A DNA stretch of 37,315 nucleotides from a bacterium (GCA_016933415.1 JAFGAX010000033.1:1-37315), one strand, 5' to 3'. Shown: positions 1,201-23,881, counted from the first letter of the stretch. The notes: generated by a model not told the origin, from the sequence alone. Numbers and translations are program-made.

Positions 1201-3249
1201 TTACGGCCGTGTCCGGACAAAGCGGATGGCCTGCCCGCCGCCGGGCGCGAGCCTCATTTTTATAACACCGGACGCGTCCGCAGGTTCCTCCGTGACGGTC
1301 AGCGGGTATGGGTTCTTCTCCCAGTGCGCGTCTTTCCCGTCCCTGTAAATCTGAGCAGTATATTTCACGCCCGGTTCTAGAAACGCGAGCGGCGCCTCCA
1401 GAATCCGGCCCTCTTCGTCCGTGACGCTCCCCAGATACCAGTCCCCGCTGTTTCTGTCCTTTCTCGCGATGGTCACATAATCCCCGATACGGGCGTGGAG
1501 CACTTTCGTGTCCTCCCAGTCCACGGGCACGTCCCTGATGAAGCGTAAGGCATCCGGATATTTTTCATAATTTTCCGGCAGATCGGCCGCCATATGGAGC
1601 GGGCTGTACAAAACCACATAGAGGGCCAGCTGTTTGGCCGTCGTGGTATTGACCCGGTTTCGCGGCCTTTCAGGACCGAACCGCAGACCGACTATGCCCG
1701 GCGTGTAATCCATGGGGCCCGCGAGGAGCCGCGTGAAAGGCAGAATCGTGGCATGTTCGGGCGGATTGCCGCCGTCCGGGCTCCAGGCCTCGTATTCCTG
1801 GCCTCTCGCGCCCTCGCGCGTCATCAGGTTCGGCCAGGTACGCCTCAAGCCGGTGTCCTTGACCGGTTCGTGCACGTCGATCATGATTCGACGGCGGGCG
1901 GCCTCCTCGACCACTTTCTGGTGGTGCCTCACCATGTACTGGCCGTGATGCCATTCTCCGGCTTTTTCCCCTTTCCCGTCGATGCGCTGGAGCCTGGGTC
2001 CGTTGGCCACGTAACCTGTTTTCACGGTATGAATGCCGAGCTTTTCATACAGCGCGAAAGCCTCTTTCAGCTGACGCTCGTAATTGGGCACTGCCCCGCC
2101 TGTTTCATTGTGCCCGATGAGTCCCACCCCCTTTTCGGACGCATAAGCCGCCACTTCGCGTATGTCGTAATCACGTGCGCTCCGGGTGAAATCGAACCGG
2201 TCTCCGTGCACGGTCCAGTCTCCGTCCCATCCCCTGTTCCAGCCCTCAACCAGCACGCCTGCCAGACCGTTCCGGGATGCGAAATCGATGTATTTTTTTG
2301 CGTTTTCAGTCGTGGCCCCGTGTCTGGGCCCCGTGCTCCAGGTGGCCAGGTCCAGGTGCATGGCCCACCAGATTCCCGCGTACTTGCCCGGCTTGATCCA
2401 GGAAACATCTCCGAGCGCGTTGGGCTCGTTCAGATTGAGAATCAGGTAGGACGTGATCAGGCCGCCGGGGTCGTCCGCGATCTGAATCGTGCGCCAGGGT
2501 GTTTTCATCGGCGTCCGCGCCTTCACGCGGATGCCGTCCGACCAGGGCGTGAGGTCCGCCTTGAGCGTGTTCCGGCCCGCCGGAGCGAGCTGCATTGCTG
2601 CATAATCGGTCAAGGCCGCCTCGTGGATGCTGAGATACAGACCGTTGGCGGTCTCCAGGGTCAGGGGCGTATGCGCGGTGTCCATGGCGCTGACCGGCGT
2701 GCGGCGGTAAAGCTGTTCATATTCCACCTGATCCCGGTTGTAGGCCGGTATCCACCAGGCCGCGGGGTCTCCGGCGAGCGCGAATTCCGTGGTCTCATCC
2801 GTGATCTCGAACCGTTCCAGCCCATTCTGCGCCGGAATCTCGTACCGGAAACCGACCCCGTCCTCGTAAACGCGGAACACCACGTCCATCCTGCGGCCGT
2901 TCTTCCCCTTTTCCACCAGAGACACGGCCAGTTCATTGTACCGGTTCCGGATCTCCCGCTTTTCGCCCCACGGCTGAACCCAGGTCTCGTCGAATGTCCG
3001 AGTGTGGACGGATCCGATTTCGAAGGGACCCTGAAGCGGCCTTCCGCCCTTCAGGACAAAGCCCATGGCCGAACGTTGAATCAGTTCCCGTCCGAACCGT
3101 TCGATCCTGTATTTCGGACGGCCTTCCTCCAAATCGAACGCGACCCGCACCGATCCGTCGGGCGAGTCAATGGTCGCGGGCGCCGCGGACGACAGGCCCG
3201 CGGCCGCGCAGAGAATAAACAGCACAACCCATATGAAACGTGAATCCAT
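1201..3249 (-). CDS. Glycoside hydrolase family 97 (alpha-glucosidase-type)
   Basis: A 682-residue exported glycosidase with signal peptide MDSRFIWVVLFILCAAAGLSSA. The ATG at 3249 has an AGGAG site upstream. The N-terminal beta-sandwich starts with TIDSPDGSVRVAFD, followed by a TIM barrel with VLVEGWNRGWDGDW, IGHNETGG (Glu382), MIDVHEPVKDTG (Glu461), and ARGQEYEAW (Glu485). From memory of the SusB family, Glu in these three positions marks the inverting alpha-glucosidase branch of GH97, as opposed to the retaining alpha-galactosidase branch, which uses an Asp nucleophile. Length matches the family (about 650-700 residues). It likely removes glucose from non-reducing ends of alpha-glucans in the periplasm; there is no T9SS tail, so surface display by that route is not indicated. 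A 122 bp gap separates it from the PorV-like gene, so it may have its own promoter, but I found none. Confidence 0.93.
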   Translation of the reverse strand: MDSRFIWVVLFILCAAAGLSSAAPATIDSPDGSVRVAFDLEEGRPKYRIERFGRELIQRSAMGFVLKGGRPLQGPFEIGSVHTRTFDETWVQPWGEKREIRNRYNELAVSLVEKGKNGRRMDVVFRVYEDGVGFRYEIPAQNGLERFEITDETTEFALAGDPAAWWIPAYNRDQVEYEQLYRRTPVSAMDTAHTPLTLETANGLYLSIHEAALTDYAAMQLAPAGRNTLKADLTPWSDGIRVKARTPMKTPWRTIQIADDPGGLITSYLILNLNEPNALGDVSWIKPGKYAGIWWAMHLDLATWSTGPRHGATTENAKKYIDFASRNGLAGVLVEGWNRGWDGDWTVHGDRFDFTRSARDYDIREVAAYASEKGVGLIGHNETGGAVPNYERQLKEAFALYEKLGIHTVKTGYVANGPRLQRIDGKGEKAGEWHHGQYMVRHHQKVVEEAARRRIMIDVHEPVKDTGLRRTWPNLMTREGARGQEYEAWSPDGGNPPEHATILPFTRLLAGPMDYTPGIVGLRFGPERPRNRVNTTTAKQLALYVVLYSPLHMAADLPENYEKYPDALRFIRDVPVDWEDTKVLHARIGDYVTIARKDRNSGDWYLGSVTDEEGRILEAPLAFLEPGVKYTAQIYRDGKDAHWEKNPYPLTVTEEPADASGVIKMRLAPGGGQAIRFVRTRP

Positions 3250-3371: not shown

Positions 3372-4397
3372 CTACAGCCGGATGGCCAGGGAAAACCGCT
3401 GGGTGTTGTTCAGAATGCCGAAATCCTGATACGCGTAATCGATGCTGATATTCCCGGTACCGCCGATGCGCTGCGTAAGGCCGCCGCCCAGGGTCAGCCC
3501 CTGCTGGCTGTCGCGCGAGAACAGGGACTTGTATCCCACACGGAGCCGGACCCGGTTCCGGAACACGTATTCACAGCCCGCATTGACGCATTCGGTGCTG
3601 TCGTTCGGGTGCAGAGCGTCCAGGGCCACGATCAGCCTGTCTCCGCCGGCGCTTTTGAGCAGATCCGCGGACACACCGACGCGGAACATCAGGGGCAGGT
3701 CGAACGCGTCCGTCCGCAGATCGGCCTTGATGTTCCCGTTGTTGCCCGATTGAACCGGATCGATGTCATGCTGCACGAGCATGTCATCGCCGGTCATGCG
3801 CATTTTCGTGCCGAAATTGGAAATGGACATGCCGATGCGCATGTCGTGAAACTGGGTCCGGAACAACGTGCCGATGTCGAGGGCCAGGCCCTGGGCCCGG
3901 CTGTGGTAGATGGACTCGCGTATGTATTTGCCGTTGAACCCGATGCTGAACCGGTCGGTCAGCGCCCGTCCGACGCTGATGCCGAAGGCCAGACTGCCGG
4001 CGTCGAAATACTCGCCGGTTCCGTCCGGCGCCTCGACCGTGGTGCGCTCCATGTCGTCCATGGTCACGAACGTGGCGTTGACGCCCAGCGTGCCGAGGTT
4101 CCCGGCCGGGAGCACCAGACCGGTATAATTGGTGCGGATGTCCGCAAGCCAGCGGCCGTACGTGACGAGAAACTCGGTACCGCGTATGCCCGCAATGCCG
4201 GCCGGATTCCAGAACATGGCTGTGGCGTCATCCGCGACCGAGGCGAACGCGCCGCCCATGGCCACGGCCCTGGCGCCTGCGTCGATCGAGAGAAATTTGG
4301 CCGCGATTGTCCCGGACTTCGAGACGCCCTGACCCTCAAGGGCCTGATGGAGGGCCAGGATCGCCGCCGCTGTGAAAAAAACCCAACTTTTTCTCAT
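3372..4397 (-). CDS. PorV/PorQ-family outer-membrane beta-barrel protein
   Basis: A 341-residue protein. The start is ATG at 4397 with AGAGGAG upstream; the ORF track begins 90 codons earlier but that part overlaps the upstream gene in another frame. A signal peptide (residues 1-23) is followed by the family hallmark AGARAVAMGGAFASVADDAT and FWNPAGIA, then alternating hydrophobic strands ending in SLAIRL, as expected for a FadL-like 14-strand barrel. In Bacteroidetes, PorV is the shuttle that receives T9SS cargo from the SprA translocon and passes it to the attachment complex. Here the gene sits only 22 bp downstream of a gene for a T9SS-tailed protein, which suggests a dedicated partner. Other members of the broad PorV/UPF0164 family have no proven role, so the shuttle function is inference. 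Confidence 0.85.
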   Translation of the reverse strand: MRKSWVFFTAAAILALHQALEGQGVSKSGTIAAKFLSIDAGARAVAMGGAFASVADDATAMFWNPAGIAGIRGTEFLVTYGRWLADIRTNYTGLVLPAGNLGTLGVNATFVTMDDMERTTVEAPDGTGEYFDAGSLAFGISVGRALTDRFSIGFNGKYIRESIYHSRAQGLALDIGTLFRTQFHDMRIGMSISNFGTKMRMTGDDMLVQHDIDPVQSGNNGNIKADLRTDAFDLPLMFRVGVSADLLKSAGGDRLIVALDALHPNDSTECVNAGCEYVFRNRVRLRVGYKSLFSRDSQQGLTLGGGLTQRIGGTGNISIDYAYQDFGILNNTQRFSLAIRL

Positions 4398-4419
4398 GGG
4401 TGACTCCTCTTTCCCTCTC

Positions 4420-7400
4420 TTATTTGATGACCGCGAATTTGCCGACCTTTTCGCCGATGCCGGGCGCCTGAACGTGATAGAGGTAGACGCCGTAGGCGAT
4501 GTCCAGGTTGTCCCGGGTCCGCATGTCCCATATTTCGGTGCCGTCGCGCAGATCGGATGCGTGGTCGATGTCGGCCACCATCTGCCCGCTGATGTCGAAA
4601 ATGCGGATGCGGCACTTCTGCGGCAGATGCGTGAAATGCAGTTCGCGCGGCCCCCTGCCGCTGGCAAAGGGGTTTGCCGCCTCCCATGTATTGGCGGCGA
4701 TGTAGGGATTCGGCACTACCCGGATATCGTCCATTCCCTTTTTTGCCAGAGCCGGATCGACGGACTCCGGCGTCATCGTGAATTCGAACACGTCGTTCGA
4801 CAGAAACGGCCGGTGAAACACCAGCGACAGGGTATCCCCGGCCGACGCCTGGAGCGTGTCCGTGTCTGAATTCGCGAGCGTGATCTGCCAGGAGGCGTGC
4901 AGGGAATCCGGGTGCAGCAGAATAATCTCGTCACTCGACGACCGCGAGGTGCGGGCGGTGAATTGTCCGTCCTGCCCGGCCAGAAGGTCCCGCTCGCGGA
5001 AGGCGAAGCGGACCTTTTCGCCGGTCAGCGTGTTCCGCACCGTGAAATTCACGGGCTTGGCCGGCACTTCGGCGGTGCCGCGGAAGAAGGTGGTCGAGGT
5101 GTCGATGCCGACCTCCCCGAAAATGATCTTGAAATCAGCTGCCATGAGAGTCACCGGCATGGCCTGGAAGCTGAATGGCGCCACGGCGGGCGGATACACG
5201 CCCGGGCGGCTCCAGGCGGTGGCGTATGCATTGAGGCCGAGCACGTCCGCCGAGCTGTGGAAGGACAGGATGAATCCGTCCGTGATCGGCTGTTCATCCC
5301 CGTCGTGGAAGCACGTGTCCGCCTCCGCCAAAGTCTCTCCGGTCGTCACGTTGACCCAGGTAAAGTCCTTTGTGGCGGGCAGATTTTTCTGGTTCCCGAC
5401 CGTGACCCTTCGGTCCGTGAACGTGACCCGGTACGTGTGCGGCCGCACGGCCTGCGGATCAACGATGCGGATGCCGATCCTTCCGCCGGTCGTGCTTCCG
5501 GCCAGCCATCCCGCGGATCCCGCGCCTGATGGAATAAAACCCGCGGCCGGAGCTTCGGGCCGCACCACCGCGACATTCGTCCCCTTGTCGAGCACTCCGG
5601 TGGCGCCGATGGCGATATACCGGGCGCATTCCGTCGGCGGAATTCCCTGTTCCGCAAGGCCCCGGTCATACGACGTGACCGCGTAATAATACTGCTGTCC
5701 GTTCACCACCGTCGTGTCGGTCCAGGCATGGACGATTCCGGTGTCGTCGCCGAGCCAGTAATGAACGCCCTTGACCGGCACGGCCGCGTAGCCCTTGACG
5801 CCGTTGTCCAGATCGAACTGCGCCAGGGGCTTGGTGTAGGTCTTGACGCCCTGCCCGTCCGTGATTGCCTTCATGTCGTTCCAGCCCGGGTCCGTGGAAC
5901 GGTAGATGCGGTAACCCTCGAAATCGCGTCCCGCGATGGGATCCTCCGAAAACTCGGCCCGGTCGTCCCACATCAGCGTGACCCGGCGGTCCCCGGCGAC
6001 GGCCCGCAGTGCGGGAATGACCGGCGCCTGGGAAAAATTATAGTTCTCCGAATAGGCCTTGGCGACCCATCTCTTGTTTTCAAACAGGTCGTCCCGGTCC
6101 TCGCCGCAGATCAGGCCCATCGAGAACCGTTCAACCTGCTGCGGTGCCATGGGAAAGTAGCCGGAGCCGAACATCAACTCCGTGTCGCCCGCTTCCATGA
6201 GGTCGTCGAGACGGCCGGGGGTGAGCGCGGTCCAGACATCCTCGTCCTTGTGCAGGGGCAGGGCCGTGTACAGGTAGAGATAGAAGCTGGTCAGGCCCAG
6301 CATGTCCGATTCGTCGATGTCGGTCTTGTCGATATGCGGCTCTCCGGGCAGGTTGGTGTTCGCCCCGGACGTGGGCCGGCCGTCGCCCTCTCCCGCGTCG
6401 TCCGTACGGGCCACGCCGTCCAGCCCCACATCATCCACACGCAGGTCCCAGTCGCCGTCATTGTCAGTGCCGTCGTCCCGCCTCTCGTCCAGGAGAATGT
6501 TGTCCTTTCCCGCGCCGGTGATATAATCGATGGTTTTGGCCCCCACATTGAGATAGGTGGTGATTTCATTGGGCGGCGAGCCGATGGTCACGCCGGTGTT
6601 CTCGTCGATGAGTCCGTTCAGGTTGTCGTCGAAGCCGTTGAACGGTTCCTCGGCGATTTCTTTTCCGGGCCAGTACAGAACGGTCCTGTCCTGCCACCGT
6701 ATGCGCAGTGTGTCCGCCGCCATGCGCGCCACGGACCGTTCGTAATTCGAATAGTCGATGAGCACGATATCGTCCCCGGCATTCAGCGTGCGCGCCGCGA
6801 AATCCGCCTCGGTCAGCGCGGGGCCGGGCCCGTCCGCGCCGTCGCCGTCATTGTCGATGCCGTCGAACGCGTTGCCCGGACTTTCCAGAAAAGCGCCGCC
6901 CAGGTACCCGACCGGCCCCCATCCGCCGGTGCCGATATCATCGTTGTCCCAGGAATAGGCCAGGTCGGCGGTGATGTCGTATCCGCCGTTGTCGTCCTGT
7001 GATTCGTTTCCGAAGGCCGTGTTCATGACATGGCCCATGATGTTGCCGATCTTGAGCCCGAAAACCGTCTTGTTATGGTTCGTGGTGCCGATGTTCTCGA
7101 CGTCGTACAGACAGAACAGCGCGTCTTCCACAAGGGCCTGCGACCACTGGAAACCGCGGATATAGACGCGGACCCCCAGCCCGCGGCGCGACTGGTCCGT
7201 GCTGTCCGGATAGAACGGATATTCCCGGTTCTCATAATCGTCCACCACGAAATAACTTTCCTCGTCCGCGTTCAGCACGCCCTTTCCGAAGTACCCGTTC
7301 CATTTTCCCCGCCATCCCGGATCGACGGCGTCGTCGTTCTTGTCCGGCCAGAACGGCGGCCAGGACCAGGGCCATTTGCTCATGGCGATTTTGTTCGTGT

Positions 7401-7800
7401 CCGGGTTTGAAAATCCGGGCAGGGGCAGAAAAGTGTAGGGATCGCCGTCGGGACCGATCTTGCCGCTGGAGTTCGTGCCGTCGCCGATGGCGACCGGTTC
7501 GGTGATGATGTGCCGGACAATGCCGTCGTTGCAGAGCGCCTCGGAACCCACCAGCACGCTCGCGTCGATCAGATACGAATACCCGGAATTGATGGGCCAC
7601 TCGCCCCCGATCAGGGTCGGATCGTTGAAGTTCGTGATGCCGAACATGCCGTCGTTGTAGAACGTGGTCCTGAACTGGTTCCCCGAGTGCACACCGTCCT
7701 TCCGCTCGCGGAACACCCCATGAAGGCCCTGCATCTGGCCGTACAGGCCTGCCGTCACGGTCCAGACCGCGAGGAGAAATATACCCGCCGTTTTTTTCAT
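4420..7800 (-). CDS. Large secreted protein with Asp-rich loops, FnIII domain and T9SS-like tail
   Basis: A 1126-residue exported protein of unknown function. I chose ATG 7800 (MKKTAGIFLL...) because AAGGAGAAG lies just before it; the ORF's start at 7824 would put this site inside the gene. The signal peptide is residues 1-~22. A Trp-rich stretch (WPWSWPPFW) occurs at ~130-140. Three Asp/Asn/Gly-rich segments, GIDNDGDGADG (~310-325), GFDDNLNGLIDE (~388-402) and GTDNDGDWD (~440-450), resemble calcium-binding thrombospondin-3/MopE-type loops. A fibronectin type III-like domain spans ~590-725 (RVTLMWDD, FEGYRIYRS). The last ~100 residues start VVPNPYIAANTW and end GVYLYHV...KFAVIK, a T9SS sorting-like fold. 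It lies between the TonB receptor (36 bp) and the PorV-like gene (22 bp), so probably one operon. It may act as a surface ligand-binding partner of the receptor; that is inference from position. Confidence 0.8.
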   Translation of the reverse strand: MKKTAGIFLLAVWTVTAGLYGQMQGLHGVFRERKDGVHSGNQFRTTFYNDGMFGITNFNDPTLIGGEWPINSGYSYLIDASVLVGSEALCNDGIVRHIITEPVAIGDGTNSSGKIGPDGDPYTFLPLPGFSNPDTNKIAMSKWPWSWPPFWPDKNDDAVDPGWRGKWNGYFGKGVLNADEESYFVVDDYENREYPFYPDSTDQSRRGLGVRVYIRGFQWSQALVEDALFCLYDVENIGTTNHNKTVFGLKIGNIMGHVMNTAFGNESQDDNGGYDITADLAYSWDNDDIGTGGWGPVGYLGGAFLESPGNAFDGIDNDGDGADGPGPALTEADFAARTLNAGDDIVLIDYSNYERSVARMAADTLRIRWQDRTVLYWPGKEIAEEPFNGFDDNLNGLIDENTGVTIGSPPNEITTYLNVGAKTIDYITGAGKDNILLDERRDDGTDNDGDWDLRVDDVGLDGVARTDDAGEGDGRPTSGANTNLPGEPHIDKTDIDESDMLGLTSFYLYLYTALPLHKDEDVWTALTPGRLDDLMEAGDTELMFGSGYFPMAPQQVERFSMGLICGEDRDDLFENKRWVAKAYSENYNFSQAPVIPALRAVAGDRRVTLMWDDRAEFSEDPIAGRDFEGYRIYRSTDPGWNDMKAITDGQGVKTYTKPLAQFDLDNGVKGYAAVPVKGVHYWLGDDTGIVHAWTDTTVVNGQQYYYAVTSYDRGLAEQGIPPTECARYIAIGATGVLDKGTNVAVVRPEAPAAGFIPSGAGSAGWLAGSTTGGRIGIRIVDPQAVRPHTYRVTFTDRRVTVGNQKNLPATKDFTWVNVTTGETLAEADTCFHDGDEQPITDGFILSFHSSADVLGLNAYATAWSRPGVYPPAVAPFSFQAMPVTLMAADFKIIFGEVGIDTSTTFFRGTAEVPAKPVNFTVRNTLTGEKVRFAFRERDLLAGQDGQFTARTSRSSSDEIILLHPDSLHASWQITLANSDTDTLQASAGDTLSLVFHRPFLSNDVFEFTMTPESVDPALAKKGMDDIRVVPNPYIAANTWEAANPFASGRGPRELHFTHLPQKCRIRIFDISGQMVADIDHASDLRDGTEIWDMRTRDNLDIAYGVYLYHVQAPGIGEKVGKFAVIK

Positions 7801-7836
7801 TTTCTTCTCCTTGTCCGAGTCCATGGCCGCGACGGA

Positions 7837-10797
7837 TCAGAATCCGACCGCCATGCCGATTTCAATACGCCGGGGTTCCGCGTAATATCCGGAATTCCGG
7901 CTGTAGTCTCCGATCGTTCCGACCCGGTTCGCGTCGAACGGGATGGCCGACGGTTCGATGGTGGTCGTGTAATCCGCCGTGCCTGTATCGGACCAGACGG
8001 AATTCTGGTTCTCGATGTCAAGCAGGTTGTACGCGTTGACGAACAGCGACACCTGCAGACTCCGGATCGGGAAGGCTTTCCGGACCAGCAGGTCCACGTT
8101 CCTGCGGGAGGGCATGCGCCTGCTGTTGTCATCGAATTCGAGCATCGCGGCCGATCCGACCGTGGAGGCCCTGGCCACGGTCGGCGTATAGGGCCGGCCC
8201 GTGTAATAACTCGCGATCATCGACACCGTCCAGCCGTTCCGCACCCAGCTGAAGCTGCCGTTGATCGTGTGTGTCTGGTCCCAGCTCATCGGCACCAGCT
8301 TCAGCCGCGGCTCCTGGTTCCCGATCAAGGCGAGAAACGCGTCGTTCGGGTTGGAATAGGTGCCCTCGGCCACCTGATAATAATAGTCCAGCTCGGCCGA
8401 AAAACAGTTCGAGAACCGCTTCGACACACCCACCGTCACCCCGCGGACATTTGAGTAATCCTTGTTCTCCCACCGGGCGTATTCCACGCCGGGCATGGGC
8501 GTAACGATCATCGCGCTGGTGCTGACCCAGTCGCGAACGTCCCGGTAGAAAACCGTCACGTCCATGCCGATGTTGTCCGTGACCTGCTGCTGCAGGCCGA
8601 TTTCGTACTGTACGGTCCGCTGGGGTTTCAGGTCCGCGTTGCCCATGATGACGCGGGTGGTCGAGGGATCGATCTTGAAGTCCGGCCTGTCGTACAGATA
8701 ATTGAACGTGGGAATCTGGAAGAAATGACCGTAGGAGAAATGGATGACGCCCCGGTCCGTGACCGGATACGCGATGCCCAGTCTCGGGCTGATCTGGGTC
8801 CTGGAACCCGCCTTTTTGTGCATGAAGGCGCGCCGTTCGTCCGGCGTGTATTCCGTCCGCAGGGAATCCGGCGCGTCCGGATTCCGGTAGATATTCCCGT
8901 CCTTGAACGGGTAAAAGATGTTGGGATCCGATGGATCCGCCGGGACGACGCCCATCGAATTGAAGTAATCGAACCGCAATCCGAGGTTGACGATCAGGTC
9001 GTTCAGCTCGATCTTGTCCTGGGCATACGCGGAGAATTCCTTCGGCTTGCGGTCATATTTCCAATGGTACATGCTCGACAGCGGCTTGATCTCCGGTTCG
9101 TACGGCACGATTTCCTCGTCCGCCTCGGTTTTCAGTTTCGGACGCAGGGTGAACTGTTCGAAGAAAAGCCGGTAGAGGCGCATCTCCACGCCCGCCTTGA
9201 TCTGGTGGATGCGGTTGACCTGGCTGGTCAGGTCCAGCTTGCCGAGCCAGTATCCTGTGCTCTGTTTGAAATGATCCCGGTCCATCCCGTCGTTCAGAAA
9301 GCTGTACGGCGTCGGCGGCTGGTCCAGATCATGATGGATGTACCCGTCCGGCCCGTCCGGATCGACGATGTAGGAGTAGGGCGTCCGCTCGGCGATCAAA
9401 GAATCGAGCCTGGCCCGGCCCGCGGCCGTGGCCGGATCGAAGGTGACGGCATTGCCGCCCGCATCGGTCATACGCACCAGGTAATCGGGCTTCGCCTCCG
9501 GATTCTCGTATACGTACTGTTTGTACGTGTTGTCGAAACGGCTCAGTTTCAGCTCGTAAAACGTTTTTTCGGAAAGCACGTGGTTCATGGTGAAAATCTG
9601 CGTCAGCCCGTCGTTGAAATGACGGGCCGTTCCGTATGGATTGTATTTATAGGTGTGGTTGTACACCCGGTCCTGCCCGTCATGGCTCCAGAAGATGTTG
9701 TGCGTGAACTTCAGATGGGCGCCGGCCTGGTATTTCAGCTTGACCTGGACATTCTGCCGCTCATAGGGGCTCATCGGAACCAGGCCGCTGTCTCCGGCCG
9801 CGCCCGTGGGCCTGAACCAGTCCCTGCCGTAGAGATATCCCTCGTTCGAGAAAATCCGCGCGTTGGCGAAAAACGTGAGTTTCGGACCGAATCCAGGCAC
9901 CGGCCCGCTGAGATTCATCTCCGCGTCCGCAACCGGGTTGAATTTCGAAAGCGGGTTCTCTTCGACGCCGACCGCCTCCGGTTTCCCGGTGGCCGCGTTC
10001 GTTCCGGTCCGGACTGATTTCAGAACGCCGAACTTTCCTCCCGGGCTCACATAATCGCCGACATAGGCGCGCACCTGGCCCGTGTATTGATCGTTCCCCT
10101 CCTTGGTGATGATGTTGACGATTCCGGACATGGCCTGTCCGTACTCGGCGTTGAAGGTGCCGCTGATCACCTGCAGTTCCTTGATCGCCGCATTTTCGAC
10201 CGTGACGCCCATGGTGCCGGAAAAAACATTGGTGGCGGACACGCCGTCGACCCAGTAGGCGATTTCATTCGACCGTCCTCCGCGGATATGCAGCCCGTCC
10301 GACCGCACGACACCGGCCTGCAGGGCAAGCACCTCACTCACCTCGGACACGGGCAGGTTGCCGATCTCTTCGGACGACACGGAGACGAGCGAACTGGTCA
10401 TGTCTTTTTTCACCAGGGGCCGCTCGGCCTGAATGATCACGACCTCGTCGCTGGTCAGCACCGTGGGACGGAGGAGACCATCCAGAACCGTGGTCATGTC
10501 GATCGACACCCGGGCGTTTTCGATCACGGTCTGCCTGTACCCCATCATGGCGAAACGGACAGTGTACGTGCCGGGTGGAACGTTCAGGATCGCATAGGAG
10601 CCGTCCAGGTCCGCGGCAGCGCCGATGCCCGCGCCGGTCACGATGATGTTCGCGCCGACCAGCGGCAGTTTCGTGACCGCGTCCAAGACCACGCCTGAAA
10701 TCTTGCCGGTCGTGCCGGCCAGGAGGCCGGCCGCCCCTATCCAAACCGAAAGAGACAGCGCAAGCCAGGCTGAAACACTTTTTGATATCCTTCTCAT
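7837..10797 (-). CDS. TonB-dependent outer-membrane receptor with carboxypeptidase-like N-terminal domain
   Basis: A 986-residue receptor. Start ATG 10797 (MRRISKSVSAW...) is preceded by GGGAGAAAGG; the ORF's earlier start would add 25 residues that do not look like a signal peptide. After the signal peptide comes a carboxypeptidase regulatory-like domain (~30-110: GKISGVVLDAVTKLPLVGAN ... GTYTVRFAMMGY), then DEVVIIQAERP, which resembles a TonB-box region, then the plug (~125-235: LHIRGGRSNEIAYWVDGV, GMSGIVNIITKEG-like end), and a 22-strand-type barrel ending in Phe (GMAVGF). It would import a ligand across the outer membrane using TonB energy. It is SusC-like in its N-terminal domain, but the next gene is a T9SS cargo, not susD. 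Its upstream region holds a perfect direct repeat listed separately, so control by the adjacent HTCS is plausible. The substrate is not identifiable from sequence. Confidence 0.92.
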   Translation of the reverse strand: MRRISKSVSAWLALSLSVWIGAAGLLAGTTGKISGVVLDAVTKLPLVGANIIVTGAGIGAAADLDGSYAILNVPPGTYTVRFAMMGYRQTVIENARVSIDMTTVLDGLLRPTVLTSDEVVIIQAERPLVKKDMTSSLVSVSSEEIGNLPVSEVSEVLALQAGVVRSDGLHIRGGRSNEIAYWVDGVSATNVFSGTMGVTVENAAIKELQVISGTFNAEYGQAMSGIVNIITKEGNDQYTGQVRAYVGDYVSPGGKFGVLKSVRTGTNAATGKPEAVGVEENPLSKFNPVADAEMNLSGPVPGFGPKLTFFANARIFSNEGYLYGRDWFRPTGAAGDSGLVPMSPYERQNVQVKLKYQAGAHLKFTHNIFWSHDGQDRVYNHTYKYNPYGTARHFNDGLTQIFTMNHVLSEKTFYELKLSRFDNTYKQYVYENPEAKPDYLVRMTDAGGNAVTFDPATAAGRARLDSLIAERTPYSYIVDPDGPDGYIHHDLDQPPTPYSFLNDGMDRDHFKQSTGYWLGKLDLTSQVNRIHQIKAGVEMRLYRLFFEQFTLRPKLKTEADEEIVPYEPEIKPLSSMYHWKYDRKPKEFSAYAQDKIELNDLIVNLGLRFDYFNSMGVVPADPSDPNIFYPFKDGNIYRNPDAPDSLRTEYTPDERRAFMHKKAGSRTQISPRLGIAYPVTDRGVIHFSYGHFFQIPTFNYLYDRPDFKIDPSTTRVIMGNADLKPQRTVQYEIGLQQQVTDNIGMDVTVFYRDVRDWVSTSAMIVTPMPGVEYARWENKDYSNVRGVTVGVSKRFSNCFSAELDYYYQVAEGTYSNPNDAFLALIGNQEPRLKLVPMSWDQTHTINGSFSWVRNGWTVSMIASYYTGRPYTPTVARASTVGSAAMLEFDDNSRRMPSRRNVDLLVRKAFPIRSLQVSLFVNAYNLLDIENQNSVWSDTGTADYTTTIEPSAIPFDANRVGTIGDYSRNSGYYAEPRRIEIGMAVGF

Positions 10798-10945: not shown

Positions 10946-13900
10946 CTAACTTCTTGTTTTGCCTGTTTTTGAGAGGTCGATGTTGAGCTTTGAAGCGAGA
11001 TACTCGGAGGGAGACCGGCCGAATTGCTTGCGGAAACACCTGGAAAAATAGTTCAGATCATTGAATCCCACATGGTAGGCGATTTCAGATATTTTCATTT
11101 TCCTGTTGTCCAGAAGCTGGGCTGCAGCCTTGAGGCGGATGGACCGTATGAATTCGTGCACCGTCTGTCCCGTGAGGCTCCTGATTTTTCTGTACAGCTG
11201 GGTCCTGCTGATTCCAGCCTCCCGGCTGAGCGCGTCCGCATCCAGCTTCCAGTCCGACAGCCGATTTTCCACAATCTGGCGTGTGCGCTCGAGAAACCGC
11301 TCGTCCAGGCTCATCACCGGTGTTTCACCGGGTTCCGTCAGAATCTGTTTGCGGAAATGCGCTCTCAGCTTTTTTCTCGATTCCAGCAGATTGAAAACCC
11401 TTGCCGCGAGTTCCTTGGCGTCAAAAGGCTTGGGCAGGTAATCGTCCGCGCCGATCAGAATGCCCTTGATCTTGTGCTCGTGCTCGCTGTGCACGGTCAG
11501 AAGAAGCACGGGGATATGGCTTGTTTTCTCCTCGGTTTTGATTCTGCGGCACAGGTCGTATCCATTCAGTCCGGGCATCTCGAGATCACTGATCACGAGA
11601 TCCGGCACCGTGGAAATGGCCTTCTCGAGTCCTGTTTTTCCGTCCATTGCGGACAGCATGCGCACGGAAGCGCCGAAAAGATCCTGGATGTGTCTGTGCA
11701 TGTCCGGGTCGTCGTCCACGACCAGTATCAGCGGCGTGGATCTCGACGACTCGTCCTCCGAGTCGGGTGTTCCCGAACCGGTTTCCGATGGAACGGATGA
11801 CGCAATCTCCTCCCCCGGACCGGTTCCTGCGCCGTCCCCTGCGGATTCGGTTGCCGGTTCCGCCGGTCGCTCGAACACCATCACGTCCACCGGTATCAGC
11901 ACGGTGAAAACCGTGCCCTTTCCCTCCTCGCTGTCAACAGTCATCCGGCCCTGGTGCAGTTCGACCAGCTCATGCGCGAGGTGAAGGCCGATGCCCAGGC
12001 CCTGCTCACCCGACGGAGACGCGGATTCCGCGGGACCGGAGCGGTCGAACAGCCGCTCCAGGCGGGCCGCAGGAATGCCGACGCCCGTGTCCGCCACGCG
12101 GATTCGGAAGGTTTTCTCTATCTCCTCATCCTCCGCGAGATACTCCAGGTTCAGCGTGACGCTGCCTCCGTCCGGCGTGAACTTGAACGCATTGGACAGA
12201 AGATTGTAGACGATCTTGTCCAGCGCGTCCGGATCGAACCAGGTCAATCCGTATGAAATCGTGCTGTGAAACTGAAAGTCGATTCGGTGCAGGCTCGCAT
12301 ATTCCCGGAAGGAATGATACATGTCCTGCAGGAACCGGACCATGTCGCGCTGTTCGGTTTTCAGCCGGATTTCGGACGGTTCCGTTTTGTAGAATTCAAT
12401 AAACTGGTTCAGCAGGCGCGAGAGCCGCCTGGCGTTGCGTGCCGCCATTTCCAGCGTCCCCCGGAATGCCGCGTCCACGCGGCCCGTACGGATAAGATGG
12501 TCGAGAGGCCCGAGGATGAGCATGATCGGCGTGCGCAGTTCATGCGACACACTGCTGAAAAATCGGGATTTCATCCGGTCCGCTTCCACCAGTTTTTCGA
12601 ACTGAAGGTGCTCCATCTCCAGTTCGTGCTTCATTCTCTGCCGTTTCAGGCGGGCGCGGATAAACACCATGACCGCGCCGCCCGCGAACAGACCGTACAG
12701 AAAAAACGCGATCCAGGTTTTCCAGAACGGGGGCCTGATCCGGATACGGAGGGAGAGGCCCTGCTCGTTCCACACACCGTCGTTGTTCGCGGCTTTCACC
12801 CGGAACACGTAGCGGCCGGGATTCAGGTTGGTGTAGGTCGCGTGGTTCTGGGTGCCGACCTCGTTCCAGTCCTTCTCGAATCCCTCCATGCGGAAGGCGT
12901 ACCGGTTCCGCTCCGGATGCGTGAAATTCAGGGCCGTGAACTCGAACGAAAAAACGGACGCCCGGTGCGAAAGCGTCAGGTCCTGGGTCTCGTTGATCTG
13001 CACGCGAAGGGGTCCGTGCTTGCCGACCGGCACGGACCTGTTGAATATCCTGAAATCCGTGAACGCGATCTGCGGGGGATGCGGGTTCGGACGTATGCTG
13101 TCCGGATGGAACAGGACGAAGCCGTCCGCGCCGCCGAACAGCAGTTCGCCGTTTCGGGTCCGAAATGCGGCCTTCAGGTTGAACTGGCCCCCGGGCGCTT
13201 CCGCGAGGCTCTCGAATGTCCGGAACAGCGCAGCGTCCGGATGGAAGCGCGTGACTCCTGCCAGGGAACTGATCCACAGGTTGCTCTTTCCGTCGCCCTG
13301 CACGGCCAGGATGAAGTCGTTGGGGAGCCCGTCCTTCGCGCGATAGGTCCGGAACCGTCCGGTTTCCCGGTCCAGCAGTCCAAGTCCGTTCGAAGTCCCG
13401 ACCCAGAACCGGCCCTGACCGTCTTCGAACATCGAATGGATCCGGTTGTCGCTCAGGCCCGCTGTGTCCGCGGGATTCTGCGTGTATCGGATGAAGCGCC
13501 CCTTCCCCGGCCTGTCCTCCTGAAACCGGGCCAGACCGTCGGACAAAGTGCCCACCCACAATGTGCCTCTGCGGTCCCGGTACAGGGAGAATACGATGTT
13601 GCTCTGCAGGCTGGCCGGGTCAGCGGGGTCCGTCTGATACGTCGTCATCGCGCCGGTCCGCGAATCGACCAGCGTGAGCCCGCCTCCGTATGTGCCCACC
13701 GCCATCCGGCCCCTGCCGGCATTGGCGAGCGCAAACACGTGGTTGCTCTGCAGGCCGCTGTTCCCGGAATTCAACCGCGTGAATCCATTCCCGCCCGTGT
13801 CCAGAATGCTGATTCCGCCGTTCCAGGTGCCGGCCCAGAGTCGGCCCGCATCATCAGTCGCCAAAGACAGCACGGCATTGCTGCCGAGGCTTCGCGGATT

Positions 13901-15160
13901 CCGGGGGTCGTGCCGGTATGAACGGAACGCCTGTTTCCGCCGGTTGTAATGGTTCAGCCCTCCGCCGTCCGTCGCGATCCAGAAATCGCCGAAGGCGTCC
14001 TCCAGAAACGCTGTCACAATGCCGCCGCTGAACCCGCTTCCCGGAAAACCGTGGATGCGGCTGAACTTGAGCTCGTTCGGGTCGATGCAGTTGACGCCGG
14101 CCATCCACGTTCCGAACCACAGTCTGTCCTGGCGGTCTTCGAATATGGACCACACGGAATTGCCGCTGATCGAGAATTCCTCGTCGCGCCTGCTTTTGAA
14201 CCTGTGATGGAGACGTCTTTCCCGGTCGTAGACCGCGAGCCCGTTGTCCTCCATGCTCACCCACAGCCGTCCCTGCCTGTCCTCGCAAAGCGCCAGAATC
14301 CGGTACCGGCTCAGAAAGTCATTCTCGCCGATGGAATCCGTGAAACGCCTCATCCGGATCGGGCCGGACCCGTTTCTGAAAACCTGAAGACCGGCCTGAT
14401 TGGTGGCCACCCAAAAGGTTCCGGAGTCGTCCTGAATCATCTCCTGAAAGTTCCAGAACTCATTTCCGATCGGATCCGCGTTTCCGTTGAAAACCTGCTC
14501 CAGCCGGCCGGCCGGCGAATCGAGACGGTACAATTCCCGCCACCGTCCGTACCAGATGCGTCCTTCATGGTCCTCATAAATGAAATTATGGTAATTCGCA
14601 GGATCGCCCGGCGCCGCCGGAACGTCCGGTAGAAAACGCTGGAAATCATTCGTATCCGGCCTGTACAGGCACAGGTCGTCCGCCGCGACCCAGATCCTTC
14701 CCTGCCGGTCGGCCCGGACGTCGCTGACCGTGCTTCCCGCCAGGCTGTTGGCTTGTTCGGATGCGTGATACTGGACGAAGCGGTCCAACGACCGGTCATA
14801 GCGGTTCAGTCCGTTCTCGGTCGCTATCCACAGGTCGCCTTTTGTGTCCTCCGCGATCTTGCGGATATGGTCGTTCGACAGGCTCGTGCTGTCGTCCGGA
14901 TCATGGACGTAAATGCGGATGTTGATGCCGTCGTAACGGTTCAGGCCTCTCGGCGTCCCGATCCACAGGAATCCCTGATGATCCTGGAAAATGCATTCGG
15001 CTGTGTTGTAGGAGAGGTTTTTGGAAAGGCTGCGGAAGCGAAAATTTTCGGAAGGTTCCCGGGGACGCGATAATCCGGAAGCGTTTCCCCCGCAGATGCA
15101 GGTCTGCGCCGGGGAGACGCATAATGCAAAAATCAGAATGATCTTGAGGGAGATTTTCAT
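10946..15160 (-). CDS. Hybrid two-component system regulator (sensor, kinase, receiver and AraC domains in one chain)
   Basis: A 1404-residue one-protein signalling system. Start ATG 15160 (MKISLKIILIFALC...) gives a signal peptide and is preceded by GGGAG. I count 14 propeller motifs of the type LWIGT..GLNRYD across ~60-690, enough for two seven-bladed propellers, followed by a Y_Y_Y domain (~720-810), one membrane helix (~816-834), a HisKA helix with SVSHELRTP (His873), an ATPase domain with NLLSNAFKFT, DTGVGIP and GLGIGL, an acidic/Ser linker, a receiver with VISDLEMPG (Asp1192), and a C-terminal AraC helix-turn-helix (IAYHVGFNDLNYFSRCF). In Bacteroides such proteins sense oligosaccharides in the periplasm and activate polysaccharide-utilization genes. 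Here it lies directly upstream of the TonB receptor (148 bp gap) on the same strand, which predicts control of the receptor-to-CBM gene set. All catalytic motifs look intact. Confidence 0.96.
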   Translation of the reverse strand: MKISLKIILIFALCVSPAQTCICGGNASGLSRPREPSENFRFRSLSKNLSYNTAECIFQDHQGFLWIGTPRGLNRYDGINIRIYVHDPDDSTSLSNDHIRKIAEDTKGDLWIATENGLNRYDRSLDRFVQYHASEQANSLAGSTVSDVRADRQGRIWVAADDLCLYRPDTNDFQRFLPDVPAAPGDPANYHNFIYEDHEGRIWYGRWRELYRLDSPAGRLEQVFNGNADPIGNEFWNFQEMIQDDSGTFWVATNQAGLQVFRNGSGPIRMRRFTDSIGENDFLSRYRILALCEDRQGRLWVSMEDNGLAVYDRERRLHHRFKSRRDEEFSISGNSVWSIFEDRQDRLWFGTWMAGVNCIDPNELKFSRIHGFPGSGFSGGIVTAFLEDAFGDFWIATDGGGLNHYNRRKQAFRSYRHDPRNPRSLGSNAVLSLATDDAGRLWAGTWNGGISILDTGGNGFTRLNSGNSGLQSNHVFALANAGRGRMAVGTYGGGLTLVDSRTGAMTTYQTDPADPASLQSNIVFSLYRDRRGTLWVGTLSDGLARFQEDRPGKGRFIRYTQNPADTAGLSDNRIHSMFEDGQGRFWVGTSNGLGLLDRETGRFRTYRAKDGLPNDFILAVQGDGKSNLWISSLAGVTRFHPDAALFRTFESLAEAPGGQFNLKAAFRTRNGELLFGGADGFVLFHPDSIRPNPHPPQIAFTDFRIFNRSVPVGKHGPLRVQINETQDLTLSHRASVFSFEFTALNFTHPERNRYAFRMEGFEKDWNEVGTQNHATYTNLNPGRYVFRVKAANNDGVWNEQGLSLRIRIRPPFWKTWIAFFLYGLFAGGAVMVFIRARLKRQRMKHELEMEHLQFEKLVEADRMKSRFFSSVSHELRTPIMLILGPLDHLIRTGRVDAAFRGTLEMAARNARRLSRLLNQFIEFYKTEPSEIRLKTEQRDMVRFLQDMYHSFREYASLHRIDFQFHSTISYGLTWFDPDALDKIVYNLLSNAFKFTPDGGSVTLNLEYLAEDEEIEKTFRIRVADTGVGIPAARLERLFDRSGPAESASPSGEQGLGIGLHLAHELVELHQGRMTVDSEEGKGTVFTVLIPVDVMVFERPAEPATESAGDGAGTGPGEEIASSVPSETGSGTPDSEDESSRSTPLILVVDDDPDMHRHIQDLFGASVRMLSAMDGKTGLEKAISTVPDLVISDLEMPGLNGYDLCRRIKTEEKTSHIPVLLLTVHSEHEHKIKGILIGADDYLPKPFDAKELAARVFNLLESRKKLRAHFRKQILTEPGETPVMSLDERFLERTRQIVENRLSDWKLDADALSREAGISRTQLYRKIRSLTGQTVHEFIRSIRLKAAAQLLDNRKMKISEIAYHVGFNDLNYFSRCFRKQFGRSPSEYLASKLNIDLSKTGKTRS

Positions 15161-15429: not shown

Positions 15430-16215
15430 TTATCTTCGTTTCTGCATCATATTCTGAAGCCTGCGCCGGCGGATGTCCTCGCGCTGTTTGTTCCACTTCA
15501 CCCAGTCGGTCTGTTCGTCCATGTCCTTTCTCGAAAACTGCCCCATGGAGAGCACGATGCCCTTCGGGTCGATCGTGATCTGCTGCATGCCTTTGACAAT
15601 GTACACCCATTCATCCAGGGAGACTTCATGCGGCCCCTGAATGGGCTTCGGGCCTTCGATTTGCACGGGCTTTCCGGAGGGCTTCGGCGCCGGATCGGGC
15701 TTATCCGTTGCATTGGTGATCTTGACCTCGCCCTTGTACACCTTGAGCTGGGTGGTCGAGTCGTCCCGTACGGTCATGCGGAGCACGGTACCGGTGATGG
15801 CCGCGGCCGCCACGGGCGCGGAGATGTCGAATTCCGTTTCCGCGTTCACCTCGTGCACCGACGCCCAGATCTCGCCTTTTTCCACCTTGATGGATGTGGC
15901 CAGCTTCTTCTCCCGGGTCTCCTCGTAGAGGCGGTCGAGCAGAACCGTGGTCTTGGGCGCGAGCCGGATGATGTCCAGCTGGATGAGCTCGAGTTCGGCA
16001 CGCGACATCTGATAGGTGCGCACCTTCTCCCCGGAATTCACGGCGGACTGGACGGGCGCGTTCTCCCACATCTCAGAGGCGGGCGGCTGCTTTCTCACCT
16101 CGCCCTCGGCGAAGGCCACGATTCCCTTACGCTCCTCGCTCCGCGAGAAGCGGCCGTCCGCCAGCATCACCATCGCGGGCAGAACCAGCCAGAACACCCA
16201 CTTGAAGCGCCTCAT
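15430..16215 (-). CDS. FecR-domain exported protein
   Basis: A 261-residue protein with an N-terminal signal peptide or anchor (MRRFKWVFWLVLPAMVML). Residues ~50-165 match the FecR fold in outline: AVNSGEKVRTYQMSRAEL, LDIIRLAPKTTVLL, KVEKGEIWASV, FDISAPVAAAAITGTVLRM and TQLKVYKGEVKI. This is the stand-alone, periplasmic type of FecR domain, not an anti-sigma factor, because there is no cytoplasmic helix bundle and no sigma gene nearby. A Pro/Lys-rich segment follows, and the C-terminus is very basic (KQREDIRRRRLQNMMQKRR). Its ATG overlaps the upstream stop as ATGA, so translation is probably coupled to that gene. Function is unknown; FecR domains of this class may bind peptidoglycan or envelope polymers. 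Confidence 0.85.
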   Translation of the reverse strand: MRRFKWVFWLVLPAMVMLADGRFSRSEERKGIVAFAEGEVRKQPPASEMWENAPVQSAVNSGEKVRTYQMSRAELELIQLDIIRLAPKTTVLLDRLYEETREKKLATSIKVEKGEIWASVHEVNAETEFDISAPVAAAAITGTVLRMTVRDDSTTQLKVYKGEVKITNATDKPDPAPKPSGKPVQIEGPKPIQGPHEVSLDEWVYIVKGMQQITIDPKGIVLSMGQFSRKDMDEQTDWVKWNKQREDIRRRRLQNMMQKRR

Positions 16216-18095: not shown

Positions 18096-20525
18096 TTATT
18101 CCTCCTCTCGAACGACCCGCGCGACATCCGCAACGCGGTCCCCGCCCTTGAGCCGGATGAGACGCACGCCCTGCGTGTTCCGGCCGGTGACGCCGATGTC
18201 CTGCATCTGCTGGCGTAAAATCTGGCCTTTGGCCGATATCAGGAGCAGGTCGTCCGTGTCCAGCACGTCCATGAGCGCGATCATCCGGCCGACTTTTTCG
18301 CTGACCTTTAATGTGATGATGCCCTTGCCGCCCCTGGACGTCACCCGGTAGTCCGAAATGTCGGAACGCTTGCCGAATCCATTCTCTGTGACTACCAGTA
18401 AAGTCCCCTCGCGGCGGATCACGACCATGCCGATCACCTCATCCTTGCCCTGGAGGGTGATTCCGCGGACGCCGGCCGCGGCTCGGCCCATCTCCCGCAC
18501 CTCGGATTCATGGAACCGGATCGCCTGCCCGTCTCGGGTGCCGAGCACGATGTCCTGGCCCCCCTCGGTGAGCTTGACTTCGATGAGCCGGTCATCCTTG
18601 CCGAGCCCGATGGCCTGTATGCCCTTGCGCATGGGGCGACTGAACGCGGCCAGGCTGGTCTTCTTGACCTGACCGCGCCGGGTGGCCATGAACAGGTTTT
18701 TCTTTTCGTCGAAATCCTTGACCGGGACCACGGCCGAAATCTTCTCGCCGGACTGCACGGAGAGCAGGTTGATGATGGCCCGGCCGCGCGATCCCTTGCC
18801 CACCTGCGGGATCTCATGCACCTTGATCCAGAGACATCGTCCCTGATCCGTGAAAAAGAGGATGTAATGGTGCGTGGACGCGATGAAGAGGTGCTCGACG
18901 GAGTCCTCGTCGCCCGTGTCGGCGCCGATGACCCCCTTCCCGCCCCGGCCCTGACGCTTGTACCCGGAGACGGGGAACCGCTTGATGTATCCCGAATGGG
19001 AGATGGTGATCACCATGTCCTCTTCGGCGATGATGTCCTCGATCGAAAAATCGTCCACCTTGCCGACGATTTCCGTGCGCCGTTCGTCTCCGTACTTCTC
19101 CTTGATCGCGAGCAGTTCCTCCCGGATCACCTCCATCTGCTTGGCCTTGTTCGAGAGAATGCTCTTCAGCCGCTCGATTTCCTTGAGCACTGCGGCGTAT
19201 TCCTCCTCGATCTTCCTGCGCTCGAGGCCGGTGAGCCGCTGGAGCCGCATGTCGAGAATCGCGTTGGCCTGCAGTTCCGAAAAACGGAACCGCTTCATCA
19301 TGGCTTCGCGCGCGTCGTCCGGCGTCTTCGATTTCTTGATGAGCTGAATGATCTCGTCGATGTGGTCGAGCGCCTTTTTCAGGCCCTCGAGGATATGGGC
19401 CCTCTTTTCGGCCTTGTCCAGCTCGAATTTCGTGCGCCGGATCACGATCTCGTGGCGGTGCGCGATGAATTTCTCGAGCATCTCCTTGAGATTCAGGACG
19501 CGGGGACGGCCCTCCACCAAGGCCAGCAGAATCACGCCGAACGTGGTCTGCATCTGGGTGTGAACGTAAAGCTGGTTCAGAACGACCTGCGCCTGCGCGT
19601 CCCGTTTCAGTTCGAGCACAATGCGCATGCCGTCGCGGTCGGATTCGTCGCGTATGTCGGAGATGCCCTCGATCTTCTTGTCCTTGACCAGGTCGGCGAT
19701 GGACGCGATCAGGTTCGACTTGTTGACCTGATAGGGGATCTCGTTGACGATGATCGCTTCCCGGCCGTTCTTACCCTTTTCCACGGCTGCGCGCGCCCGC
19801 ACGAGAAGACGGCCCCGGCCGGTCTTGTACGCCTCGAGAATGCCCTCGGTACCCGTAATGATGCCGCCGGTCGGGAAATCCGGACCCTTGACGATGCGCG
19901 ACAACGCCTCGATCGTCGTATCGGGCCTGCGAATGAGGGCCGCGAGCGCGTCCACCACTTCCGACAGATTGTGCGGCGGAATGTTGGTCGCCATGCCCAC
20001 CGCGATGCCCGACGCGCCGTTCACCAGCAGGTTGGGGTAGGCGCAGGGCATCACCGAGGGCTCCTGCAGGGATTCGTCGAAATTGGGGACGAAATCGACC
20101 GTCTGTTTGTCGATGTCCGCCAGGATCTCCTCGGCGACGGCGGTGAGACGGGCTTCGGTGTACCGCATGGCCGCCGCGGAGTCGCCGTCGACGGAGCCGA
20201 AATTGCCCTGACCGTCCACGAGGGGATAGCGCATCGAAAAGTCCTGCACCATCCGTACCATGGCGTCATACACGGCCGTGTCTCCATGCGGATGGTATTT
20301 GCCGAGCACGTCTCCGACGATACGGGCGGATTTCCGGTAGGGCCGGTTGGGATGCAGGCCCAGTTCCGTCATGCCGTAGAGGATGCGCCGGTGCACGGGC
20401 TTCAGCCCGTCCCGGACATCGGGCAGCGCCCGCGCCACGATGACCGACATGGAGTAGTCGATGTACGAATTGCGCATCTCCTCCTCGATGTACACGGGGA
20501 CGATGCGGTCGCGTTTTTTCTGCAT
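18096..20525 (-). CDS. gyrA: DNA gyrase subunit A
   Basis: An 809-residue gyrase A subunit, which cuts and rejoins DNA during negative supercoiling in complex with GyrB. The catalytic Tyr122 lies in MRYTEARLT, exactly as in the E. coli numbering. The quinolone-contact region reads [10 protein letters not shown], with Thr at position 83 and Asp at 87; Thr83 occurs naturally in many bacteria and is not by itself evidence of acquired resistance. The C-terminal pinwheel contains the GyrA-box form QGRGGKG, which separates it from ParC. The end is acidic (VREEE). The gene follows gyrB after 36 bp and precedes archease by 5 bp. Length is typical of shorter GyrA proteins. Confidence 0.98.
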
Positions 20526-20561
20526 GGTTTTCCTTTTGTGACGGATCCCGATCCGGACGGC

Positions 20562-22758
<2,197 letters not shown>

Positions 22759-22762
22759 GCTT

Positions 22763-23881
22763 CTATGAACTCAATTTAATGGGCATCAGAAGCATTTCAA
22801 ATTCTTCGCCCGGCATCTGTTCGGCCGGAGTGACCAGGGCGGCGTTCATGGGGCTTTTCAGGTGAAATGTGGCCGCTTCGGTGTCGATCTGTTTCAGTAT
22901 GTCCATGACGTACATCGCATTGTATCCTATCTCCATGTCGTCTTCGGCGTACTGAACCGTCAATTCCTCCTTGGCCTCGCCTCCGACGTCAAGGTCTTCG
23001 GATTGCACGGTCAGTCTGTCTTTCGCGACGGAGAACCGCACCTGATGGGTGAAGGCGTTTGAAAAAAGCGACACTCGCTTCACGGCCGAACTCAGAAAAT
23101 TTCGGTCAACGGTCATCTGTTTTTTATTGTCCGAAGGAATGACGCGCTCGTAATCGGGATACTGCCCGTCTACAAGACGGGTGAAAAGTGTAGTGCCGCC
23201 GAAAATGAAGCAGAGCATCTTTTCCTGAACGATCATTCGGGTCGTTCCCTCTCCGGAGATGTTTTTGACTACGAGCTGGGCCGCCTTCGGGGGTATGATC
23301 AGGTTCACGGGCTTCTGTTTGGATTTGAAGTTCCGGTCCACGATTTTGGAAAGGCGGTGGCCGTCCGTGGCCACCATTCTGAATTCATTGGCCGTGATCT
23401 GAACGTAGACGCCCATCAGGGCCGGCCTCAGTTCGTCCGAGGATACTGCAAAAAGAGTCTTGCTGAACATCCGGTGGAGGCGGCCGTTGTCCATTTCAAA
23501 ATAGGTGTCGGAAGTGCTTTTGGGAATTTCGGGAAAATTGTCCTTGGAGATGCCCGATATCTGGTAATATCCCTGATCGGTCGTCATTTTCACTTTATGG
23601 TTTTTGTCGACTTCGAAACGGATCGCGATGTTGGGCATGGAACGGATCATCTCGATGAGAACGCGGGCCGGGAGAGCAACGGCTCCGGTTTTTTCGATTT
23701 TTTCGGGCGCGGTCTGAGTCGTGACCGAAACCTCCAGATCGGTTCCGGTGAGCCGGAGGACCTCCTCGTCCAGTTCGAAGAACACGTTCTCAAGCACCGG
23801 TGTTGCGGATTTGGCGGGAACGACGCCCGAAACCTTCTGCAAACACTGAAAAAGGGTTTCTTGCGAGATCGTGAACTTCAT
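22763..23881 (-). CDS. dnaN: DNA polymerase III beta sliding clamp
   Basis: A 372-residue clamp with three repeated domains. Recognisable parts are the N-terminus MKFTISQETLFQCLQKVSGVV, DLEVSVTTQ, MVATDGHRLSKI, and the C-terminal MDILKQIDTEAATFHLKSPMNAALVTP ending MPIKLSS, the usual beta-clamp tail. The clamp encircles DNA and holds replicative polymerase on its template. A good ribosome site (AAGGAG) precedes ATG 23881. A 301 bp AT-rich spacer separates it from dnaA, so it probably has its own promoter. Confidence 0.98.
   Translation of the reverse strand: MKFTISQETLFQCLQKVSGVVPAKSATPVLENVFFELDEEVLRLTGTDLEVSVTTQTAPEKIEKTGAVALPARVLIEMIRSMPNIAIRFEVDKNHKVKMTTDQGYYQISGISKDNFPEIPKSTSDTYFEMDNGRLHRMFSKTLFAVSSDELRPALMGVYVQITANEFRMVATDGHRLSKIVDRNFKSKQKPVNLIIPPKAAQLVVKNISGEGTTRMIVQEKMLCFIFGGTTLFTRLVDGQYPDYERVIPSDNKKQMTVDRNFLSSAVKRVSLFSNAFTHQVRFSVAKDRLTVQSEDLDVGGEAKEELTVQYAEDDMEIGYNAMYVMDILKQIDTEAATFHLKSPMNAALVTPAEQMPGEEFEMLLMPIKLSS

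Follow-up and report, generated by a model that had tools for sequence, protein, structure and literature searches.

In a 37,315-nucleotide contig (GCA_016933415.1, JAFGAX010000033.1; the window, by which we mean the whole stretch analysed) from a bacterium of phylum KSB1, treated in PMC11683472 as Zhuqueibacterota, three closely spaced genes encode a TonB-dependent receptor, a large cargo protein of the type IX secretion system (T9SS) and an outer membrane barrel of the PorV/PorQ family. We read this trio as a SusCD-like uptake unit in which the T9SS delivers the surface partner of the receptor and a private PorV-like barrel keeps it in place, and put the probability of this reading at about 0.6. 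Sequence comparison gives good support to its core, a T9SS cargo in the SusD position with a dedicated PorV-like partner. All three genes lie on the minus strand: the receptor (986 residues) at 7837–10797 (ATG 10797, stop 7837), the cargo (1126 residues) at 4420–7800 (ATG 7800, stop 4420), with its C-terminal domain at 4423–4764, and the barrel (341 residues, assigned with NCBIfam) at 3372–4397 (ATG 4397, stop 3372). The intergenic gaps of 36 bp between receptor and cargo and 22 bp between cargo and barrel match a preliminary description of this DNA exactly, but the span given there, 4395–10797, takes in the receptor and cargo and leaves the PorV-like gene outside. Each of the three genes is preceded by a purine-rich, ribosome-binding-like stretch, and the trio sits within a six-gene glycan locus.

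Far from being a rare combination, the three genes recur together throughout the phylum. We searched 59 KSB1-phylum genomes, the window's own and 58 relatives, and in 60 regions sampled along the similarity ranking scored all open reading frames with profiles for the three families. Cargo homologues occur in 56 of the 59 genomes, often with ten or more matches. A TonB receptor gene lies directly upstream of the cargo gene, or with the PorV-like gene alone between them, in 62 of 63 cases (the window's included), with a median receptor–cargo gap of 55 bp, and a PorV-family gene is present in the cluster for 61/63 cargo genes, the trio genes always sharing one strand. Of the incomplete cases, three in all, two lie at contig ends, and one receptor–cargo pair, L075, lacks a PorV gene beside it. 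The adjacency spans some 20 families and three gene orders, mostly receptor–cargo–PorV, with receptor–PorV–cargo and PorV–receptor–cargo also found; since the order varies, it is the set itself that selection preserves, rather than one frozen operon. The window's genome has further receptor–cargo(–PorV) sets on contigs C63 (cut), C214, C156, C158, C74 and C155 (cut). A further, shorter class of cargo, about 700 residues long (L014:3477-5594, L015:8630-10813 and L021:1-2069), with a largely different N-terminal part and a related tail, also has an adjacent TonB receptor and, where the contig permits (L014, L015), a PorV-like gene. The cargo family is found as well in a metagenome-assembled genome titled ‘Bacteroidetes bacterium SB10’ (L060) and in 30 relatives; at a GyrB identity of 66%, the SB10 genome is not separated from other members.

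The phylogenies of the three families agree, with tree-distance correlations over 57 trios of 0.90 for receptor and cargo, 0.79 for cargo and PorV and 0.85 for receptor and PorV, and with 19 well-supported splits common to all three trees. When partners were shuffled within the 18 genomes that hold several trios, r fell to about 0.3, and the observed value was not attained in any of 2000 shuffles; because swaps within a genome destroy the correlation, the agreement goes beyond what speciation alone would give. The cargo tail correlates with PorV at 0.40 once the receptor's share of the distance is removed, and with the receptor at 0.07 once that of PorV is removed, whereas the partial correlations of the rest of the cargo range from −0.08 to 0.20 with PorV and from 0.52 to 0.71 with the receptor. 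None of 200 equal-length blocks of the body prefers PorV as strongly as the tail does. This division is suggestive, a hint that the tail may dock on the barrel while the body meets the receptor.

The T9SS tail that the preliminary description assigned to the cargo is real, though atypical. Searched alone, the window cargo has no match to the type A sorting domain (TIGR04183/Por_Secre_tail), with a weak match to the PorZ C-terminus; all 77 homologous cargo tails, however, match a type A profile built from neighbouring proteins at about 25 bits, and it is on this account that the window tail can be recognised as a T9SS tail. TIGR04183 is matched at E<0.01 by 14 of 39 cargo tails as against 39/39 tails of neighbouring enzymes, CHU_C is matched weakly by 13/39 cargo tails, and type B (TIGR04131) is represented by a weak match in 1/39. 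The neighbour-enzyme tail profile gives median scores of 24.6 bits for cargo tails and 110.9 bits for enzyme tails, while the cargo tail profile scores cargo tails at 178 bits and neighbour-enzyme tails at 20 bits. By these comparisons the cargo tail is homologous to type A and yet a clearly separate class, as expected if a different barrel reads it; the signal peptide and T9SS-type C-terminal domain of the cargo are assigned by sequence, the fold of the tail being poorly modelled. We considered the PorZ/PorU match as a feature specific to the cargo tail and rejected it, since the type A tails of neighbours match too (PorU in 36/39, PorZ in 20/39).

Beyond its tail the cargo resembles little that is named. 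It has a signal peptide and lacks a lipobox, and among 61 homologues there is no convincing lipobox, the two pattern matches lying in one case clearly outside the signal peptide and being doubtful in the other. No Pfam domain was found at E<1, NCBIfam gave weak matches alone (the better one between the last 70 residues and PorZ), a profile search of PDB sequences gave matches at chance level alone, and no recognised enzyme family was matched in Pfam, profile or structure searches. Aligned by hhalign to SusD sequences of the same phylum, the cargo scores a probability of 0.2%; taken together, the searches reveal neither a SusD nor a recognised enzyme fold. Family members are about 1,000–1,300 residues long. 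The body has conserved W/P-rich stretches, an N-terminal domain with acidic DNDGDG-type loops that possibly bind calcium, an Fn3-like stretch (read by eye) and a β-sandwich region. Low-confidence AlphaFold models, made for the full cargo and for its N-terminal 575 residues, are mostly β; the Foldseek matches to them (Fn3 arrays, and GH94-like phosphorylases at E>0.1) were set aside as evidence, the models being poor.

The barrel belongs with PorV while differing from its canonical form. It scores 200.8 bits against PorV_fam (NCBIfam NF033709, cut-off 90), falls below the canonical PorV and PorQ equivalog cut-offs (71.8 and 91.2 bits versus 250 and 220) and has a weak Toluene_X/FadL match in Pfam. 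The near-canonical PorV of the window's genome lies on contig C117 (243.6 bits with the PorV equivalog model), which carries no trio, and a typical genome has one PorV-family gene at 288–333 bits and many others, trio members included, at no more than 247 bits. A genome holds 4–29 PorV-family genes (median 19), in step with its cargo counts, which are approximate, being numbers of match pieces (Spearman 0.77; partial r 0.80 given genome size). The own tail class, and a co-inherited barrel distinct from canonical PorV, support the dedicated shuttle or anchor proposed in the preliminary description. The genome's near-canonical PorV has as its neighbour an inactivated, T9SS-tailed M6-like protease (L018:4315-8730).

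The textbook route of glycan uptake in FCB (Fibrobacteres–Chlorobi–Bacteroidetes) bacteria is the SusCD pair. The absence of SusD beside the window's receptor, claimed from the start, extends further: no SusD (PF07980) was found in the window, in its whole genome or in a congener of that genome. The receptor, with CarboxypepD_reg_2, plug and barrel domains in Pfam, scores 57.8 bits against the SusC/RagA model (NCBIfam TIGR04056), below the cut-off of 368. The T9SS translocon component SprA was detected in 59/59 genomes, and part of its gene lies in the window at a distance of 24 kb. The flanks of trios contain GH13 with CBM20, GH5, GH26, GH94, GH130, GH3 and PF10091 glycosidases, together with CBM30, CBM4_9, LacI regulators, sugar-binding proteins and sugar transporters. 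Genes for SurA-like PPIC peptidyl-prolyl isomerases adjoin several trios (L096:11464-12963, L097:11603-13105 and others), including some in the receptor–PorV–cargo order, and perhaps provide a chaperone for the cargo or barrel. On contig C214 an SMP-30/gluconolactonase-like protein (L012:2945-3937) is encoded between the cargo and PorV-like genes.

In the mechanism we propose, the TonB receptor would act as the energised pore. The cargo would be exported through Sec and then SprA, collected by the adjacent PorV-like barrel via its special C-terminal domain, and would then stay anchored to this barrel at the cell surface, next to the receptor, where its body would capture the glycan and pass it on to the receptor. 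The GH97 and CBM proteins of the same locus would process and bind this glycan, and the upstream hybrid sensor would turn the gene set on. Trio conservation, tree agreement and the separate tail class support a receptor system built on the T9SS, as first suggested; the contacts among the trio proteins, the retention of the tail, the cargo's binding of glycan, the nature of the substrate and, with these, the cargo's role as a SusD-like surface binding partner are our inference. The wider proposal, a phylum-wide and independently built SusCD counterpart in which a three-protein complex has its cargo, through a tail of an unnamed class, permanently held by a private barrel, in some ten or more copies per genome, is more tentative, and we would give it slightly less than an even chance.

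Several observations weigh against the SusCD-like reading. SusD does occur in 22 of the 59 genomes of the phylum, mostly in one to three copies, so that replacement of SusD by the cargo is not universal; the trio is the commoner system in the phylum, with SusD still present in some members. The division between tail and body holds overall and in subfamily B, and is absent within subfamilies A and C. In resembling PorZ and PorU the tail is like ordinary type A tails, and this at most hints at retention without proving it. Lastly, both AlphaFold models of the cargo, for which few homologues were used, are poor, with mean pLDDT (predicted local distance difference test) values of 46.6 and 41.6.

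The cargo may instead be a secreted enzyme or adhesin acting alone, with the barrel as its export shuttle and the receptor importing the products, and no three-part complex formed. A private barrel beside its cargo is explained in Flavobacterium by export and placement alone (PMC12618676), and acidic, possibly calcium-binding loops with Fn3-like parts are common in surface proteins; yet no enzyme family matches the cargo, the neighbouring enzymes carry ordinary type A tails, and the cargo body co-varies more with the TonB receptor than with the barrel. We hold this account to be unlikely, though not negligible. The weak Toluene_X/FadL match could be taken to mean that the barrel admits a small hydrophobic or aromatic nutrient as a FadL-type pore and is no shuttle at all, but this seems very improbable given the far stronger PorV_fam match and the way in which barrel tree and barrel numbers track the cargo across genomes. 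The prospect that the three proteins form a complex with a structural role or one in outer membrane assembly, akin to the BamA–BamG–BamH canopy of Bacteroidota, and not a nutrient receptor, is remote: BamG is indeed a FadL-like barrel anchoring a surface protein (PMC12611786), and the window protein P0003 has a weak BamG match, but at 25.5 bits this is far under the cut-off of 250, no BamA neighbour was seen, and trios occur in many copies per genome, inside glycan loci that have LacI regulators or hybrid sensors. Finally, adjacency through chance or hitch-hiking, without function, has nothing in its favour beyond a single locus; the conservation counts (62/63 and 61/63, across about 20 families and three gene orders) already contradict it, as does the partner-swap test, and it can hardly be credited.

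Parts of the SusCD-like unit we favour have precedents. Each type B cargo of Flavobacterium is matched to a cognate PorP/SprF barrel, often encoded next to it, and this barrel is required for secretion of the cargo and probably for anchoring too (PMC12618676, PMC9143113). The PorV of Porphyromonas acts as shuttle for type A cargo, and PorU and PorZ are anchored by PorV and PorQ (PMC5562754), while in the Bacteroidota β-barrel assembly machinery (BAM) a surface protein has the FadL-like barrel BamG as its pillar (PMC12611786). A TonB receptor combined with a T9SS cargo and a PorV-like barrel is found in none of these. The trio shares with SusC/SusD (RagA/RagB) of Bacteroidota a TonB receptor with a carboxypeptidase-like extension, its gene right before that of the surface partner, and the placement of adjacent receptor and partner in regulated loci of carbohydrate-active enzymes, many copies per genome; it differs in a receptor that is not SusC/RagA, in a large, T9SS-tailed, non-lipoprotein partner that is not SusD, and in the added PorV-like gene. 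As in SprB–SprF and other type B cargo systems, a divergent-tailed cargo stands beside its own PorV-like 14-strand barrel, for which we propose a like shuttle or anchor role, but the trio barrel is of the PorV/PorQ and not the PorP/SprF family, the cargo tail is nearer PorZ, PorU and type A than type B, and a third, constant member, the TonB receptor, is added, in a setting of glycan use, not gliding. In working, the trio resembles both SusCD and SprB–SprF; by the features tested it is a member of neither. The PorU–PorV and PorZ–PorQ pairs of the T9SS attachment complex likewise hold surface proteins on PorV-family barrels, PorZ probably via its tail, and the trio cargo tail is a distant sequence match to PorZ and PorU, whereas the trio exists in many parallel copies in catabolic loci, each with a TonB receptor. 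With BamG–BamH it shares a FadL-like barrel as pillar for an extracellular protein beside a larger barrel, and differs in the low BamG score, the multiple copies and the lack of any BamA association seen. In the open literature (preprints and most subscription papers lay outside the search) searches on KSB1 with type IX secretion, on SusD-less receptors and on PorV with TonB turned up no description of the arrangement, which the preliminary description had called poorly described.

If the SusCD-like reading is correct, an uncultured phylum would rely mainly on another, T9SS-exported partner, the same uptake idea being built from different parts. It would also account for the abundance of PorV-family genes in the phylum, add a class of dedicated shuttles outside the known type B/SprF pairs, and give a testable role to an abundant cargo family that has no Pfam model.

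The locus around the trio is transcribed on the minus strand in the order sensor, TonB receptor, cargo, PorV-like barrel, GH97 protein and CBM4_9 protein. The hybrid two-component sensor-regulator (10946–15160, start codon chosen at 15160) lies 148 bp upstream of the receptor gene, and its Pfam domains, nine Reg_prop repeats, Y_Y_Y, HisKA, HATPase, a receiver and an AraC helix-turn-helix, are arranged as in the hybrid regulators that accompany glycan loci in Bacteroidota. Directly upstream of it lies a gene for a FecR-domain protein (15430–16215). Following the trio are a GH97 α-glucosidase/α-galactosidase family protein (1201–3249, Pfam/NCBIfam), because of which the substrate of the locus would be an α-glucoside or α-galactoside, and a protein with Ig and CBM4_9 domains (28–1140), whose ordinary type A T9SS tail scores above the TIGR04183 cut-off. 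The SprA/Sov gene of the T9SS translocon (34907–37279, minus strand), represented by its C-terminal part and cut by the contig end, belongs to a separate operon. Between these, gyrA, gyrB, dnaN and dnaA are grouped on the minus strand (18096–25580), which probably puts the glycan locus beside the replication origin.

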